NCBI GenBank assembly: GCA_947589495.1
Contig: CANQAK010000007.1
Span: forward strand, 1-36,590
From: an uncultured Bacilli bacterium
GTDB taxonomy: Bacteria; Bacillota_I; Bacilli_A; RF39; UBA660
DNA length: 36,590 bases
Direction of reading: 5' to 3'
The notes below the pieces were generated by a model. The model saw only the letters and a program-made list of their open reading frames with translations. It did no database searches and was not told where the DNA came from. Numbering within the stretch: the first letter of the stretch is position 1; each line of letters begins with the position of its first letter. The position numbers and the translations under genes were made by a program. Of the stretch, positions 10,636-36,136 are shown in pieces.

Positions 10636-12237
10636 ATGAAAATTAAAAATCAAAAAGCTTATGTTATTATATCTTTTATTTTAGTAGTAGAAGTTATATG
10701 TGGCTTTTTAACCTACAAGATGGTTAGTAATAAAAAAGTTAAATTAGATAATGTTGTTCTAATTAATAATAAACAAGAGGAAAATACAGGTCAAATGTTT
10801 GCATTTATGCTTGAAACTAGTAAAGATAGTAATAAATATAATCAATCAGAGGAAAATACATGGCCTGGTAAAGGTTATTCTTTTAATCAAACAAAATCGG
10901 GATGTATGGATTCAGAAGGTCGAAAAATTGATGGAGAATTAAATTATATTGAAGAATCTAATACCGTTACTTTAAAATCTGCAACTACAGTTTTTTGCTA
11001 TTTATATTTTGATAATGAAGATGACTTGCCAGTAGTCGATAAAATAGAAAAAAGTGCAAGTACAGATACTACATTGACAGTAAAAGTTACTGCTCATGAT
11101 GATAATTTTAAAATTACAGAATATTATTATAAAATTGAAGATAAAGCAACAAGTATTGCTTTGACATCAACATTAGAAACAAATGATTTTGAAAAGGATA
11201 CTAGTAATACACATATTTTTAGTAATGTTAGCAAAGGAAAATCATATAATGTTTCTGTTTATGTAAAAGATGAAAAAGGAAATCAATCAGACACATTAAC
11301 TCAAGAAGTAAGAATGACTCCAGCAGCATTAGAAACTTTGAAAGGCAAATCAGACAGTGGATTAAGTGAAATTTTAGTCGGAGGAATGTATAGGTATCAA
11401 GGAACAGATGTAAATAACTATATATGCTTAAAAGAAGTAGGTCAAGCAAATTGTGAAGATAAAAGCGAAAACATGTATCGAATCATAGGAATCACCCCTG
11501 AAGGAAATATCAAAGTCATAAAACAAACAAAATATAATAAGGGAGGAACAACAACATTTAAATGGAATACAAACTATCATGATAACTCATCATCAAGTAG
11601 TGGTTATTGTGAGAAAAATGGTTGTCCAGAGTGGCCAGAAAGTGATATATATAAAGAATTAAATACAAATAACGATTCATTCTTAAGTAAATTGGCTAGT
11701 GATATACAGAACAAAATAGAAGATTGGGAATGGTATTATGGAGATATAGCATATGATTATGCAAATAAAACAGCAGAAGAAATATATAAAATAGAAATAG
11801 GCCAAGCAAATACACAATATTATGGAAAAACATCATCAAATACAAATTTAGTAACAGATCAAAAATGGCAAAAAATGAATAAAACAGCCAAAATAGGATT
11901 AATATATTTACATGATTATTATTACCAATCAACATCAAATAACTGTCATTATAATAACAATACATATACACAATGTAAAGAAGGAGGCTGGATGCACATA
12001 TCAAAAAATAATAGTTCATTATCTGGTAACGAGCAATATGAATGGACCATGTCGCGTATAGGTCGGCATAGTAGCTCAGGTCCTTACTTCTTTGCGTGGA
12101 GTGTGATTTCGAGCGGCAATGTCAACCACAACTACTTGAACGCTACGTTTGCGGTTCGCCCAGTCTTCTATCTGAAGTCTAATGTAGAATTAGAAGGAGA
12201 AGGAACAACAAAAAGTCCATTCTACATAAAAAGTTAG
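10636..12237 (+). CDS. DGR target protein 1 (N-terminally anchored, FN3/Ig-like segment, C-terminal ligand-binding-like domain carrying VR1)
   Basis: N-terminal TM, C-terminal '...MYRIIGITPEGNIKVIKQTKY...EWTMSRIGRHSSSGPYFFAWSVISSGNVNHNYLNATFAVRPVFYLKS'. C-terminal coding segment matches TR with A-only substitutions. Confidence 0.92.
   Translation: MKIKNQKAYVIISFILVVEVICGFLTYKMVSNKKVKLDNVVLINNKQEENTGQMFAFMLETSKDSNKYNQSEENTWPGKGYSFNQTKSGCMDSEGRKIDGELNYIEESNTVTLKSATTVFCYLYFDNEDDLPVVDKIEKSASTDTTLTVKVTAHDDNFKITEYYYKIEDKATSIALTSTLETNDFEKDTSNTHIFSNVSKGKSYNVSVYVKDEKGNQSDTLTQEVRMTPAALETLKGKSDSGLSEILVGGMYRYQGTDVNNYICLKEVGQANCEDKSENMYRIIGITPEGNIKVIKQTKYNKGGTTTFKWNTNYHDNSSSSSGYCEKNGCPEWPESDIYKELNTNNDSFLSKLASDIQNKIEDWEWYYGDIAYDYANKTAEEIYKIEIGQANTQYYGKTSSNTNLVTDQKWQKMNKTAKIGLIYLHDYYYQSTSNNCHYNNNTYTQCKEGGWMHISKNNSSLSGNEQYEWTMSRIGRHSSSGPYFFAWSVISSGNVNHNYLNATFAVRPVFYLKSNVELEGEGTTKSPFYIKS
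12051..12163 (+). repeat. DGR variable repeat VR1 (113 bp) ending at IMH-like CGCCCAGtcttctat
   Basis: Hand alignment to 12374-12486: same length, 15 mismatches, every one at a TR adenine. Confidence 0.95.
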
Positions 12238-12246
12238 AAAGATAAA

Positions 12247-12279
12247 ATCGCCCAGGGTGGCTTTTGGCGCCCAGGCGAT
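12247..12279 (+). other. GC-rich hairpin just downstream of VR1 gene, containing two copies of the IMH core (T)CGCCCAG
   Basis: ATCGCC...GGCGAT outer stem and GGGTG/CGCCC inner stem (one G.T); sequence atcgcccagggtggcttttggcgcccaggcgat in a very AT-rich background. Confidence 0.7.
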
Positions 12280-12291
12280 AATAAAAAAATT

Positions 12292-12326
12292 AACCCTCAT
12301 TGATTTTAAGCAATGAGGGTTTTAAA
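12292..12326 (+). terminator. Probable intrinsic terminator after target gene 1
   Basis: AACCCTCATTG-attttaag-CAATGAGGGTT, 11-bp perfect stem, followed by TTAAAAT. Confidence 0.7.
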
Positions 12327-12342
12327 ATATTTGCATTATTGA

Positions 12343-12348
12343 TATAAT
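12343..12348 (+). promoter_or_regulatory. Possible -10 (TATAAT) for the TR RNA
   Basis: TATAAT 26 bp upstream of TR start, just after a terminator; no strong -35 at ideal spacing. Confidence 0.4.
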
Positions 12349-12373
12349 AAAAATAGGTAATCTTGAATAAGAA

Positions 12374-12486
12374 GTCGCGTATAGGTCGGAATAGTAGCTC
12401 AAGTACTAACTTCAATGCGTGGAATGTGAATTCGAACGGCAATGTCAACAACAACAACTTGAACAATACGAATGCGGTTCGCCCAG
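12374..12486 (+). repeat. DGR template repeat (TR), 113 bp, Asn-codon (AAC/AAT) rich, followed by IMH*-like cgcccagCCCACTAT
   Basis: Non-coding intergenic copy of the VR; holds A where VR1 has C/G/T; diverges from the VR flank directly after CGCCCAG (cccactat vs tcttctat). Confidence 0.95.
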
Positions 12487-12576
12487 CCCACTATAACTTG
12501 AAAGATAATATGGTTACGGCTATATTTTTGGGAAGATAGAGGACAAAGATTATCTAGGAATTTATTCCAAAGTGAA

Positions 12577-12627
12577 AACGGAGATGATATGTTTTACGAA
12601 ACAATCTATTAACTCCGTTATTTTTTT
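12577..12627 (+). terminator. Hairpin with T-tract ending TR transcript
   Basis: AACGGAG...CTCCGTT then ATTTTTTT. Confidence 0.65.
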
Positions 12628-12762
12628 GCAAGTAAACTTAGTTGCAGTACCATAATTTAGCATGCTATAATATTTATTAGGATAGGAAGTGATAAAGAAG
12701 AAGAAAATTAATAGATAGAATTATGAGACATGCGATAAAATAGATAGAAAGTAGTAATATAG

Positions 12763-13149
12763 GTGGTCAAAATAAAAAAAGAGTTAATTGAACTCAGAAA
12801 ATCTGGCAAATTTTATAATACTTTTGGTGATGATGCGATAATTTTACATTACCTAATGGGTTACAGAATAGTGGCTGAAAAGGGTGGCGTTGGTTTTCCT
12901 GAAACAGCATATAATAAAGTTATTAATGCTTTAGAAGATGCTGAAATATCATATGTTGTATATGAAAAAGAAGAAGTAATTGCAGAAAAAAACTTCAAGA
13001 AATTAAACGATTATAAAAATGTTTTAAAAAAAGGAATAAATGAATTATCGTTAGAAGAAAGATTTAATAAAATTGAAAAGAAAATTCGTGGGTTAAATCA
13101 AAAAGAATTAGACTATGTTCTTGAAGTAATAGAAAATGCAATATCATAG
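12763..13149 (+). CDS. MutS domain I-like DGR accessory protein (MSL-like)
   Basis: 'SGKFYNTFGDDAIILHYLMGYRIVAEKGGVGFPETAYNKVINALEDAEISYVVYEK' resembles the MutS N-terminal mismatch-binding domain (GDFYE.F..DA...AGVP...); GTG start; overlaps next ORF. Confidence 0.72.
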   Translation: MVKIKKELIELRKSGKFYNTFGDDAIILHYLMGYRIVAEKGGVGFPETAYNKVINALEDAEISYVVYEKEEVIAEKNFKKLNDYKNVLKKGINELSLEERFNKIEKKIRGLNQKELDYVLEVIENAIS

Positions 13150-13492
13150 TGAAAAATTCTTAATTGTTAAAAATATAAAAAAATTTATTTTAGGATTAGA
13201 AACATTATTAGTTAATTTTCCCAGAAAGGAATTTTTAACTAAAGATATGGTTTATAAAGATGCTTTAAAAATCCTGGAATTAATTTATGTAGCAAATGAA
13301 GTAGAAGATATAGTTGAAAAAAGAAAAATTCAAGTAAAAATATTAAGTAAAATTAATATGTTGGATTTTTATTTAGAAAGAGCTTATAAAAGAAAATATA
13401 TAAATGAAAAACAATGTTTAGCTAAATCAAATGAACTTGAACAAATTACTAAAATGATATATAAATGGATTAAAAATGAAAGAGTATGTTAA
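13136..13492 (+). CDS. avd: Avd-like four-helix-bundle DGR accessory protein
   Basis: 118-aa helical protein 'IKKFILGLETLLVNFPRKEFLTKDMVYKDALKILELIYVANEV...KRKIQVKILSKINMLDFYLERAYKRKYINEKQCLAKSNELEQITKMIYKWIK', directly upstream of and overlapping the RT. Confidence 0.82.
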   Translation: MQYHSEKFLIVKNIKKFILGLETLLVNFPRKEFLTKDMVYKDALKILELIYVANEVEDIVEKRKIQVKILSKINMLDFYLERAYKRKYINEKQCLAKSNELEQITKMIYKWIKNERVC

Positions 13493-14603
13493 TTTAGAAG
13501 TTTTATTAAATTTATTTGAATTAGAAATATCAAAAAATGTTAAAAATAAACATAAAGTATACATGTTTGAAAAAAATAAGTTTCAAAATATTAATAGAAT
13601 TATTAATGTATTAAGAACTAATAACTATAATGGTGGTAAATATAATATTTTTTTAATAAAAGAGCCAAAACATCGTATAGTAATGGCTTTAGATATTAGT
13701 GATAAAATAATTAATCATTTTATAGCAAGATATGTTTTAGAAAGAAAATTATCTAAATATTTAGATATACGTAATGTTGCAACTAGAAAAAATATGGGTA
13801 CAGATTATGGAATTAAATTATTAAAAAAATATTTAGAACTTAATAAAAAATATGATAATTTTTATATATTAAAATTAGATATAAGTAAATATTTTTATTC
13901 TATTGATCATGAAGTTTTAAAAAATATGATTAAAGATAAATTAGATGATGAAGAATTTAATATGGTAAGTATTATTTTAAATAGTACTAATCAAGAATAT
14001 ATTAATAAAAAAATTGCTAATATTAAAGAAAAATATCTAAATTTACATCCTGAATATAAAAAAGAAATGGATGCTTTACCATATTATTATGAGGGTAAAG
14101 GATTACCCATAGGAAATATGACAAGTCAATTTCTTTCAATATTTTATTTATATGAATTAGATCATTATATAGTTCATGATTTACATATTAAACATTATAT
14201 AAGATATATGGATGATTTTGTTTTAATTCATCATGATAAAAAAGTATTAGAAAATGCTAAAAAAGTTATTGAAGATATACTTAATAAAAAATATAAGTTG
14301 AAACTTAATGCAAAAAAGACTAAAATAGTTAACGCTAAAGAAGGATTTTCTTTTTTAGGATATACTTATAAAATAGTAAATAAAAAAACTATAGTTAAAT
14401 TAAAAAAAGAAGCATATGAAAAAATAAAAAAGAAAGTTAAAAAAGTATATTATATGTATGAATCTGGTTATTTAGATTTTAATAGTGCTTTTTGTTCAAT
14501 TATGTCTTATTGGTATAATAGAAAATATGGTAGTCAAATGAAAGTAAGAAGAGCCATTAATAAATATTGGTTTTATAAAGAACATCATGCGTGTAAAGAA
14601 TAG
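13476..14603 (+). CDS. DGR reverse transcriptase
   Basis: 'LPIGNMTSQFLSIFYLYELDHYI' (DGR-type SQ motif) and 'IRYMDDFVLI' catalytic motif; 'LDISKYFYSIDH'; 375 aa with no maturase/endonuclease extension. Confidence 0.96.
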   Translation: MKEYVNLEVLLNLFELEISKNVKNKHKVYMFEKNKFQNINRIINVLRTNNYNGGKYNIFLIKEPKHRIVMALDISDKIINHFIARYVLERKLSKYLDIRNVATRKNMGTDYGIKLLKKYLELNKKYDNFYILKLDISKYFYSIDHEVLKNMIKDKLDDEEFNMVSIILNSTNQEYINKKIANIKEKYLNLHPEYKKEMDALPYYYEGKGLPIGNMTSQFLSIFYLYELDHYIVHDLHIKHYIRYMDDFVLIHHDKKVLENAKKVIEDILNKKYKLKLNAKKTKIVNAKEGFSFLGYTYKIVNKKTIVKLKKEAYEKIKKKVKKVYYMYESGYLDFNSAFCSIMSYWYNRKYGSQMKVRRAINKYWFYKEHHACKE

Positions 14604-14874
14604 ATATGTATTTATTAAAAGAACTTTTCCTAATACAATAGTAATTTTTGAAAAAAATAATGAATATAAAAGTTATGGTCAAGATAAAGAATTATTAGAA
14701 TATATAAAATTTAAAAAGTTAAATAATTTAAATAAATTAAAAATTAATTATATTGTAGTTAGGAATATGACTATTGTAAAACATGAAATATTTGAAAATA
14801 GTATGTATCAAATCTATTATACAAGATTTAATTTATTTAAATTAGTTAATTTAATTCGTCAACGAAGACGTTAA
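14587..14874 (+). CDS. Small basic ORF overlapping 3' end of DGR RT; unknown function
   Basis: 95 aa, start overlaps RT stop by 17 bp; RQRRR C-terminus; no family recognised. Confidence 0.6.
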   Translation: MRVKNRYVFIKRTFPNTIVIFEKNNEYKSYGQDKELLEYIKFKKLNNLNKLKINYIVVRNMTIVKHEIFENSMYQIYYTRFNLFKLVNLIRQRRR

Positions 14875-14927
14875 AATAGGCAAATCCTGGGCTAATCGCA
14901 GGCCTTGGGAAATTCTATCTATGGAAG

Positions 14928-14956
14928 CCTCTTAAAAAGTGGGCTTCTTTTTTTCA
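14928..14956 (+). terminator. Terminator of DGR operon
   Basis: GAAGCC-tcttaaaaagtg-GGCTTC followed by TTTTTTT. Confidence 0.7.
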
Positions 14957-14977
14957 AAAAAAAATAATAAACCTTAG

Positions 14978-17234: not shown

Positions 17235-19427
17235 GTGAATTATATAATGGAGAAAAGAAAAACAACAATAATATTTACAATTGGAGTAATGTTGATAGTA
17301 AGTACCTTTTTAATATGTCATAAACATACGGTATATCAAACACAACTAGATGAAGTAAAGTTAAAAGATGTAGTAAATAAAGAACAAAATAATATGTTTG
17401 CCATAATGTTACAAGATGAAAATGGTGAATATAAACAAACTAATGATAGTAATTTTCCAACAGATGGATATAATTATAATGCAGAAAAATCAGGATGTAT
17501 AGATTCTAAAGGATTAGCAGTAGAAAATGTATTAACATATACAAATAAAAAATTTAGTGTAAGAACAAATAAAGCAGTATATTGTTATGTATATTTTGAT
17601 AAAAGTAATGCAGAAGAATTATTAGAGCAATTAAAAAAGAGCGGTGGATTAAGTGATGCACCAGTTGGAGGAATGTACCGATACCAAGGAACAAATGCCC
17701 AAGTAAATAATTATTTATGTTTAGAAGGAAAATGTTCTTCTGGATCAGATGATATGTACAGGATTATAGGAGTAACACCAGAAGGAAATATCAAAGTGAT
17801 AAAACAAACAAGATATGGAAGTACACATGCATGGAATACAAAATATAGTGATGCCTCCTCGCCAACTAATATTTATTGTGGGACAAGTGGATGTCCCGAA
17901 TGGCCAAATAGTGATATATATAAAGAATTAAATACAAATAATGACTCATTTTTAAATAAATTATCTAATAAAATACAAGACAAAATAGAAGAATGGGATT
18001 GGTGGTATGGAGATATAGAATATAATTATGCAAAAAATTTAACAGGAGAAAATTTATATCAAATAGAAACAGGAGGAGAAGATAGTCAGTATTATTCAAA
18101 AACACAAACAGGACAAAGTATACAAACAGGTCCATGGCAAAAAATGAGTAATAAAGCCAAAATAGGATTAATATATTTACATGATTATTATTATCAAACA
18201 ACAACATCAACCAATTGTCATCTTAGTAGTTCAACATATACACAGTGTTTAAACAATGGATGGATGCATATGCTAAATAATGAAGGAGCAACATCATATA
18301 ACGAGCAATATGAATGGACTATGACACGTGTAGGTCGAGAGAATAACTCAAGTACTGACTTCCGTGCGTGGTTTGTGAGTAGGAACGGCGAAGTCAGTAC
18401 ACAAAGTTTAAATAGTTCGTATGCGATACGCCCAGTCTTCTATTTAAAGAATAATATAACATTATATGGAAGTGGAACAGTAAATGATCCATTCAGATTA
18501 ACCGAACCAACAGAACAAGAAAACACATTAAGAAGTAAAGATACAACACAAGCTTTAAGTCAAACTTTAGTCGGAGGAATGTATAGATATCAAGGAACAA
18601 ATAATGTAGTAAAAAATAATTATATATGTTTAGGAAGTTTAAATGATATAAATTGTGGAGATAAAAGTAATGAAATGTACCGAATCATAGGAATCACCCC
18701 TGAAGGAAATATCAAAGTAATAAAACAAACAAGATATCAAAAAGGAAGCACAAGTGGATTTGCATGGAATACAGCATATAATGCATCAAGTAGTGCAAAT
18801 AGTACAGATAGATGTGATACAAATAATGGATGCCCAGAATGGCCACAAGCAGAAATATATAATACTCTAAATACGGATTTCTATAATAGTTTAAATAGTG
18901 AAATAAAAGGAAAAATAGAAGAATGGAACTATATGTATGGAGATATAAGTCATGATTTAGTAAATAGTGACCATATAACAGCAGAACAAGCATATAAAAT
19001 AGAAAGTGGACAAGAAAATACAAAATATTGGGAACATCCATCAGTAAGTTATATAGAAAATACAAAATGGACAAAAAGTCAACCATCAAAAATAGCATTA
19101 ATGTATATACATGATTATGCATATTCGGGAAGTACAACAGGACATGAAACAAGTTGTAGAACAGACTATGATACAACATGTAAAGGAAGCTGGATGCATG
19201 AAACTAATAATGATAGTAATACATATCACGAATGGACCATGTCGCGTCTAGGTCGGGCTAGTAGCTCGAGCGCTACCTTCGGTGCGTGGGTTGTGCTTTC
19301 AAGTGGCCAAGTCGACAGCCCCTACTTGACCAATACGCGTGCGGTTCGCCCAGTCTTCTATCTAACGTCCGATATAGAACTTGGAGGAGCAGGATCAACT
19401 TCTGATCCATTCTACATAGCAAATTAG
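17235..19427 (+). CDS. DGR target protein 2, tandemly duplicated target domain with VR2 and VR3
   Basis: N-terminal TM; two copies of 'GGMYRYQG...MYRIIGxTPEGNIKVIKQTRY...CPEWP...EWTMxRxGR...AxRPVFYL'. Likely true start ATG at 17247. Confidence 0.92.
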   Translation: MNYIMEKRKTTIIFTIGVMLIVSTFLICHKHTVYQTQLDEVKLKDVVNKEQNNMFAIMLQDENGEYKQTNDSNFPTDGYNYNAEKSGCIDSKGLAVENVLTYTNKKFSVRTNKAVYCYVYFDKSNAEELLEQLKKSGGLSDAPVGGMYRYQGTNAQVNNYLCLEGKCSSGSDDMYRIIGVTPEGNIKVIKQTRYGSTHAWNTKYSDASSPTNIYCGTSGCPEWPNSDIYKELNTNNDSFLNKLSNKIQDKIEEWDWWYGDIEYNYAKNLTGENLYQIETGGEDSQYYSKTQTGQSIQTGPWQKMSNKAKIGLIYLHDYYYQTTTSTNCHLSSSTYTQCLNNGWMHMLNNEGATSYNEQYEWTMTRVGRENNSSTDFRAWFVSRNGEVSTQSLNSSYAIRPVFYLKNNITLYGSGTVNDPFRLTEPTEQENTLRSKDTTQALSQTLVGGMYRYQGTNNVVKNNYICLGSLNDINCGDKSNEMYRIIGITPEGNIKVIKQTRYQKGSTSGFAWNTAYNASSSANSTDRCDTNNGCPEWPQAEIYNTLNTDFYNSLNSEIKGKIEEWNYMYGDISHDLVNSDHITAEQAYKIESGQENTKYWEHPSVSYIENTKWTKSQPSKIALMYIHDYAYSGSTTGHETSCRTDYDTTCKGSWMHETNNDSNTYHEWTMSRLGRASSSSATFGAWVVLSSGQVDSPYLTNTRAVRPVFYLTSDIELGGAGSTSDPFYIAN
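18323..18435 (+). repeat. VR2, decayed 113-bp variable repeat
   Basis: Codon-by-codon alignment to TR without gaps; about 33 mismatches, ~16 at TR A and ~17 at non-A. Confidence 0.8.
19241..19353 (+). repeat. VR3, 113-bp variable repeat with IMH CGCCCAGtcttctatct
   Basis: Gap-free alignment to TR: 26 mismatches, 22 at TR A; IMH and following tcttctatct identical to VR1. Confidence 0.93.
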
Positions 19428-34799: not shown

Positions 34800-34868
34800 A
34801 ACCTTAAGAAATAGAAGAGTTAATAAATATGAGTAAGTTATTAACAAAAAGAAAAGGTGAATTATATA

Positions 34869-36136
34869 ATGGAGAAGAAAAAGATAATAGTGTTAGCACT
34901 TACAGTAGTATTAATAATGTCAATATATATGACATATAGAACATATGAAAATAAACCAAAAGAATTACCAGAAGAAAAAGAAAAAATAGAAACAAAGAAA
35001 AAACAATTTGCCATGTATATAAAAGAAGGGGATAATTATGTAGAATATCATGGAGATGAGGGAAAAGAAAATTTATTTCCAGAAGGATATAAATTAAATG
35101 AAGAACAAAGTAGATGTGAAGATATAGATGGAAATAAAATAGATGATATAACATTTAATACAGATACAAATAGTATAACAGTAACAAGTAATAAAACTGC
35201 ATATTGTTATTTATATTTTGATAAAGAATTACCTAAAACATTGCAAACACTGCAAAGTAAAGCCAGTAGCGGATTAAGCGAAGGCTTAATTGGAGGAATG
35301 TATAGATATCAAGGAACAAATGATGTAGTAAAAAATAATTATATATGTTTAAAAGAAGCAGGACAAGCAAATTGTACAGATAAAAGTGATAACATGTATC
35401 GAATCATAGGAATCACAGAAGAAGGAAATATCAAAGTCATGAAACAAACAAAATATACAGATAGTGATGGTACAGATAAATTTGCATGGAGCACGAATGT
35501 TACTGATTCACAATGTGGAGAAAATGGTGTCCAGAATGGCCAAACAGCGATATATATCAAAGACTTAATGGAAACAATGGATTTATAAGTACATTAAATG
35601 AAAATATTAAAAATAAAATAGAAGCACAAAACTGGTGGTATGGAGATATGCATAATGATTTTGTAGGAACATTGAGTGCAGATGAAGTATACAAAGTAGA
35701 GACAGGACAAATGGATACAAAATACTATGGACATAGTTCAAGTGATAAAGCAGAAGTAACAAATCAAAGATGGACAAAAATGGAAGAAAAAGCCAATATA
35801 GGATTAATATATTTACATGATTATTATTACCAAGCAAAACAAGAAAGCTGTCATAATACAAAAAATAGTAATTATAAAGATTGCATAAATCAAGGATGGA
35901 TGCACATGAAAAATAACGGAGGAGGATCGTTAGATTACGAATGGACCATAACACGGTCCGGTCGATCGAGCGATATAGGAATTGGTTTTGGTGCGTGGTT
36001 AATCAGGAGTTATGGAAATAACGCTGCCAACTCCATGGAAGGAAGTGAGACAATTCGTCCGGTCTTCTATCTACAGTCTACTATAGAATTAGGTGGAGCA
36101 GGATCAACTTCTGAACCATTTTATATAAAAAATTAG
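34869..36136 (+). pseudogene. DGR target protein 3, frameshifted (ORFs 34857-35588 and 35513-36136), carries VR4
   Basis: Same domain as targets 1 and 2. A single T is missing in 'gaaaatggTGTccagaatgg' (35527-35530) relative to 'aaaaatggTTGTccagagtgg' of target 1; reading frame then continues to the C-terminus in the other frame. Confidence 0.8.
35950..36062 (+). repeat. VR4, strongly diverged 113-bp variable repeat
   Basis: 37 codons as in TR, keeps GCGTGG and a degenerate IMH (CGTCCGGTCTTCTATCTACAGTCTA vs CGCCCAGTCTTCTATCTGAAGTCTA). Confidence 0.7.

Follow-up and report, generated by a model that had tools for sequence, protein, structure and literature searches.

A locus with a probable stand-alone, structured template RNA gene as the likely hub of a genome-wide diversity-generating retroelement in an uncultured Bacilli bacterium

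In the present study, we analyzed a 36,590-nucleotide stretch of DNA (hereafter, the window; contig CANQAK010000007.1, assembly GCA_947589495.1) from an uncultured, gut-type Bacilli bacterium of the RF39 lineage, which carries a diversity-generating retroelement (DGR), an assignment that is secure. Comparison of sequences across the source genome suggests that at least 16 sites in genes for putative surface proteins have been rewritten from one template repeat (TR) RNA gene in the window. We consider it highly probable that this is a cellular DGR in which an autonomous small RNA gene supplies the template and one reverse transcriptase (RT) cassette serves variable repeats (VRs) genome-wide. 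A broader reading also seems likely, albeit less firmly: the DGR would be a distributed one, in which a stand-alone, structured, trans-acting TR RNA multiplies and disperses apart from the RT, with a single machine of RT, Avd and MutS domain I-like proteins acting on many surface-protein genes addressed by the non-adenine letters of the TRs. The usual picture of a DGR is a compact cassette in which a single template adjoins a single enzyme; here, an independent RNA gene provides the template, and the system would span a genome of 1.1 Mb.

Adenine-limited variation within the window and across the genome

VR1 (12051-12163; all features described here lie on the forward strand) and the TR (12374-12486) align over 113 bp without gaps and differ at 15 positions, every one of them a TR adenine (7 A>T, 4 A>C and 4 A>G), exactly as a first-pass annotation of this DNA had it. 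Given 37 adenines in the TR, the chance of this is P = 5e-9. The homology starts abruptly at GTCGCG and ends at CGCCCAG, and the previously noted switch between the initiation of mutagenic homing (IMH) element and its TR counterpart, IMH*, indeed follows directly, with TCTTCTAT in the VR and CCCACTAT in the TR. The IMH side of VR1 (TCTTCTATCTGAAGTC, 12164-12179) is conserved in the other VRs, and the distinction is retained, IMH* in TRs and IMH in VRs. The diversified codons, described earlier as AAC/AAT, are so in 10 of 12 cases, the other two being AGT and ACT. Ordinary gene conversion among paralogous domains, without reverse transcription, might be invoked to explain the likeness of TR and VR in a genome with about 60 such domains, but it would not spare every non-adenine letter while altering 41% of the adenines, and a DGR RT and Avd adjoin the TR/VR1 pair. 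We regard this explanation as refuted by the adenine-only pattern and assign it practically no probability.

The source genome is a 1.11-Mb draft in 51 contigs with one RT match. Scanning it uncovered 16 TR-derived VRs on ten contigs, all from the single TR, and the excess of differences at adenines is significant in 15 of the 16 (Fisher P < 3e-3). Non-adenine differences number 0 in VR1, 3-4 in VRs on contigs C1 and C38 and in the window VR at 19241, and up to 17 elsewhere. VR1 had been called freshly diversified; with 0 such differences against 3-17 in the other 15 VRs, this probably holds in the sense of relative recency. Similarly, the locus had been called a complete DGR, and RT, Avd, TR, VR, adenine-only mutation and IMH switch are all present; what did not stand is the single-target view, since the locus is probably the hub of a genome-wide system. 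Missing from that inventory were a second and a third VR within the window, 13 VRs elsewhere in the assembly on other contigs, the gene at 12763-13149, the open reading frame (ORF) at 14587-14874 and the structure of the TR RNA.

When target genes are compared in their closest pairs, the VRs in most cases agree in their non-adenine letters far better than the 300 bp upstream do (e.g., 96% vs 70% and 95% vs 69%), which argues for repeated homing from one shared template and against an origin of the VRs by gene duplication. At TR position 64, where the TR has C, 10 of the 16 VRs carry T, which may preserve an older state of the TR. These observations bear on a more conventional explanation, namely, that the element is a single-locus DGR with VR1 as its sole current target, the other VRs and the dispersed TRs described below being paralogues or relics of duplication or of lost cassettes. 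The 17 non-adenine differences reached by some VRs would fit such relics. However, VRs on several contigs keep 92-96% of the non-adenine letters, with the flanks of the same pairs often at about 70%.

The template repeat as a probable separate RNA gene

The TR lies within a predicted transcription unit of its own (12353-12628; RNA model match E 2.7e-31), between the intrinsic terminator of target gene 1 (12294-12326, from sequence and fold) and what is likely a separate RT-operon promoter (12642-12671; TTGCAG-18 nt-TATAAT, found by inspection). Its -10 box, TATAAT (12343-12348, extended TGATATAAT), is conserved among TR copies: it is present upstream of 53 of 65 copies (some genomes being counted twice), nearly always 12-14 nt before the first arm of helix H1 (GGTA), against a background of 10%. 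In 63 of the 65, a U-tract follows helix H5, and the predicted transcripts are mostly 250-285 nt long, about 270 nt in the window. Among relatives, the TR flanks are conserved and the TR interior is variable.

An alignment of 23 TR copies yielded six helices, in which 97% of the cells are paired, as opposed to 41-47% in slid controls. Both sides have changed in 26 of the 40 pairs, and the count of cells with such changes (138 observed vs 39 expected) was equaled in none of 500 shuffles. RNAalifold, unaided, recovered nearly the same structure, and folding of the window copy by itself gave the same helices with an unremarkable total energy (z -1.3). A search of the cassette against Rfam returned no match. 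Helix H1 encloses the whole TR, pairing 12354-12364 (UAGGUAAUCUU) with 12546-12556 (AAGAUUAUCUA), and 6 of its 11 pairs have changed on both sides, with GGUAAUCUU:AAGAUUAUC in the window exchanged for GGUAAGGUU:AAUCUUAUC and GGUAAGUAU:AUACUUAUC in two related loci (L034 and L035, respectively). In helix H2, the IMH* arm (12488-12494) pairs with a spacer arm (AUAGAGG, 12536-12542), with C-G/U-A exchanges in three pairs, as with C-G in 11 copies vs U-A in 7. The spacer arm is followed by an invariant ACA (to 12545), the two together being the proposed priming site, and the surrounding GACAA columns are invariant in all 23 copies. Helices H3 (12508-12525) and H4 (12557-12568) lie in the spacer RNA, and H5/H6 together with the U-tract form the predicted 3' end and terminator (12577-12627).

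H2 starts 2 nt past the last base identical between TR and VR and joins the IMH* block to the spacer; the difference between IMH and IMH* thus has a structural reason, presumably at the site of priming. An adenine two letters before the TR end falls on a silent codon position, yet is unchanged in 13 of the 16 VRs, which suggests a start of copying immediately upstream. The letters shared by TR and VR end at GTTCGCC in some relatives. Alternatively, the covarying RNA might be a regulatory or terminator structure unrelated to priming of complementary DNA (cDNA), as H5 with its U-tract is typical of terminators. We find this very unlikely, considering that H1 spans the whole TR, that H2 engages precisely the block (IMH*) in which the TR departs from the IMH of the VR, and that GACAA is invariant after H2.

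In the model that we favor, the TR RNA would have a promoter and a terminator to itself, and in the transcript H1 would close over the TR and H2 would pair IMH* with the spacer. RT and Avd would bind this RNA, copying would begin in the spacer beside H2 with randomization of adenines, and the cDNA would replace the VR in any target that shares the non-adenine letters of the TR and ends in CGCCCAG-TCTTCTAT. Since the cDNA could home to any matching VR, one RT cassette could serve VRs anywhere in the genome. The two MutS domain I-like proteins encoded beside the RT may help mismatched cDNA to survive or anneal.

Dispersed templates in related genomes, and comparison with known systems

Relatives of the RT are found in metagenome-assembled genomes (MAGs) of uncultured Bacilli, mostly from goat and rabbit gut according to the record names, and in about half of the genus. 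A covariance model built on the IMH*-spacer RNA returned 1 TR RNA in the genome studied here, and 13, 12, 10, 7, 6 and 6 in related genomes G019, G026, G013, G032, G022 and G007, respectively, spread over many contigs; a single match to the RT, of the cassette type, is present in each of G019, G026, G032, G022 and G007. Across the order, the TR RNA is present in 51 of 241 genomes and 18 of 92 genera, all within one family. As a direct query against the RT loci of relatives, the window TR gave no match because the non-adenine letters are not the same from one species to the next; their TRs were recovered by comparing each locus with itself. TR-VR pairs in relatives were scanned with segments shorter than 100 nt ending in GTTCGC, as 100-nt segments missed pairs owing to variation in the last shared letters.

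TR-VR pairs lying on different contigs with 0-3 non-adenine differences were found in G022, G019, G013 and G032. In G022, a TR on contig C1 and a VR on C26 differ at 13 of 26 adenines and 3 of 54 other letters, all three toward the 5' end and none in the last 60 letters. In G019, the corresponding figures are 16 of 26 and 1 of 54 (TR on C45, VR on C1; P 3e-9) and 14 of 25 and 2 of 55 (TR on C6, VR on C11). For most such pairs, the second-best TR is clearly worse. Because VRs match TRs on other contigs at non-adenine letters, TR genes appear, on this comparison, to act in trans and to address particular VRs; in these sister species, one cassette would serve several dispersed TR genes, each addressing VRs of its own. 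Many G022 contigs, C27, C12, C13, C18, C21, C2, C37 and C26 among them, start 440-520 bp ahead of a target domain, which would fit assemblies breaking in a near-identical 5' part of the target genes, and target counts would then be lower bounds. G013 (L151-L156), listed as 94% complete, has ten TR RNA genes and no match to the RT or to MSL, the first protein of the RT operon, either because the RT cassette was lost or because the assembly has a gap there.

These cross-contig pairs are difficult to reconcile with a conventional single-locus DGR, as are the promoter, terminator and compensated helices that the dispersed TR RNAs have kept, unlike relics. In its favor are G013, where 10 TRs stand without a match to RT or MSL, and the many VRs of relatives that match no TR; on balance, we consider it unlikely. 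Several points nevertheless weigh against a distributed system with trans-acting templates. The genome studied here has a single TR, the multi-TR arrangement being confined to relatives, and most targets in multi-TR genomes lack a close match to a surviving TR. The MAGs are incomplete drafts, in which binning or assembly may misplace contigs, although several independent genomes agree. A GC-rich imperfect hairpin lies 86 nt 3' of VR1 (12249-12282), and none was obvious in the stretches folded after most remote VRs; in BPP-1, such a hairpin is required. Finally, the evidence comes from comparison of assembled sequences, and present-day activity is putative.

With the DGR of Bordetella phage BPP-1 (bRT-Avd-TR-Mtd), the system shares RT, Avd, adenine mutagenesis between TR and VR, IMH/IMH* and a structured spacer after the TR, an internal adenine of which is reported to prime cDNA in BPP-1 (PMC12875486). 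In BPP-1, the TR RNA lies between avd and brt, there is one VR, and the hairpin sits 4 bp after it (PMC3240598), whereas here the TR forms a separate promoter-terminator unit upstream of MSL, Avd and RT, the VRs are many, two MutS domain I-like proteins are present, and the otherwise similar hairpin is further off, at 86 nt. The DGR of Treponema denticola is likewise cellular and diversifies remote targets, 2-7 per genome, from one TR (PMC4891356), compared with 16 VRs here, alongside TR genes that are dispersed in the relatives. Thiohalocapsa PB-PSB1 has 21 VRs in 15 targets, some probably diversified in trans, and nine DGR loci of several classes (PMC10907252), whereas here one RT cassette and one TR account for 16 VRs. 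Cyanobacterial DGRs include remote C-type lectin (CLec) paralogues, a dispersed target-domain family with remote VRs as here, in many genomes with few targets each; stand-alone TR genes are not described in the parts of that report consulted (PMC7517822). DGRs with two TRs have been mentioned (PMC6642488), and a large survey places remote targets outside its view by its own statement (PMC8144416). In the open-licence literature, we found no report of dispersed stand-alone promoter-terminator TR RNA genes, of this covarying TR RNA or of the second MutS domain I-like protein. Remote VRs are already known (T. denticola, cyanobacteria and Thiohalocapsa), and what would be new here is the distributed, addressable-template architecture. 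The covarying helices offer a testable model for the positioning of cDNA priming outside BPP-1, and trans-acting templates, which would resemble guide RNAs sharing one enzyme, also suggest a simple form of multiplexed targeted mutagenesis.

The RT operon, the target proteins and further features

Downstream of the TR are four overlapping or adjoining genes, encoding MSL, Avd, RT and a 95-aa protein. The RT (13476-14603, 375 aa; PHROG 1423, E 5e-70) carries LPIGNMTSQ (GxxxSQ, motif 4) and YMDD, like each of the seven DGR-type RTs from phages and plasmids used for comparison, and groups with these in a tree, apart from one non-DGR RT (the sole outgroup; some deep forks are weak), which agrees with the DGR reading of the earlier annotation. 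Its best PDB match is 8ub7, labelled 'Reverse transcriptase', which we take to be the BPP-1 RT. Group II intron, retron and DRT identities were rejected, the scores falling far below the cut-offs (94 of 300, 54 of 235 and, for Drt3a, 54 of 200 bits, respectively). A second, distinct lineage of DGR-type RTs (GxxxSQ) occurs in the same genus (L060, L062 and L065, in G017, G011 and G010). The gene earlier annotated as Avd-like (13136-13492, 118 aa) matches PHROG 3206, 'Avd protein of DGR' (E 9e-17), and, below the cut-off, NF033474 (E 8e-9).

MSL (12763-13149, 128 aa) is a stand-alone MutS domain I-like protein, matching PF01624 above the cut-off, as do 13 of 14 orthologues. In the position where MutS has G-x-F-Y-E, the MSL alignment retains invariant G15, F17 and Y18 (GxFY), and the Glu is not kept. 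The 95-aa protein (14587-14874), conserved in 13 loci, had no match in a search of family profiles, and its comparison with MSL profiles by hhalign reached just 40% probability. Its AlphaFold2 (AF2) model is confident (predicted local distance difference test, pLDDT, 92.8), and mostly MutS/MSH3 chains top the Foldseek list (probability up to 1.00, best E just 0.01). This structure search is the clearer of the two comparisons; we read the protein as a second, putative MutS domain I-like fold. The genome also has a gene for a full-length MutS, on another contig (C16), and the two proteins raise the question of how the DGR coexists with it.

Target gene 1 (10636-12237, 533 aa), delineated from its ORF and aligned paralogues, comprises an N-terminal membrane anchor, an immunoglobulin (Ig)-like stretch with a weak match to PF23608, and the C-terminal domain with VR1. 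Target gene 2 (17235-19427, 730 aa) contains two tandem VR domains, one with an old VR (18323-18435; 16 adenine and 17 non-adenine differences from the TR, Fisher P 0.02) and the other with 22 and 4 such differences (19241-19353; P 5e-10). A profile search gave 63 matches to the target domain, including fragments and the TR itself, hence the estimate of about 60 copies. The targets are probably surface-located and may bind ligands. The AF2 model of the target domain (pLDDT 61) was too weak to test for a C-type lectin fold and had no fold match; one paralogue weakly matches DUF6273. At 34857-36136, the window holds a disrupted gene of the target family, with a frameshift and stops (2 TGA, 1 TAG and 1 TAA inside the match).

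In 12 of 12 stretches (L009-L019 and the window), the target strand follows the direction of GC skew, including a flip of the skew inside contig C2. Co-directional targets are preferred in reported DGR homing (PMC12875486), but 82% of the other ORFs are co-oriented as well, and we rejected co-orientation as proof of replication-directed homing, with which it is simply consistent. Inverted repeats of the GTCCAGGC...GCCTGGAC type, about 40 nt apart, lie 3' of the stop codons of two target genes (L009 and L011). Lastly, CGTCAACGAAGACGTWAAAATAG occurs in ten mismatch-free copies, one at 14857-14879 of the window and nine elsewhere in the genome. Eight directly follow the stops of target-type genes whose VR domains are more diverged, one is in tandem and one is at the end of the RT operon, and a terminator hairpin, CCCTGGGAG, usually follows; the sequence is possibly a target-associated 3' element or the mark of a second class of targets.

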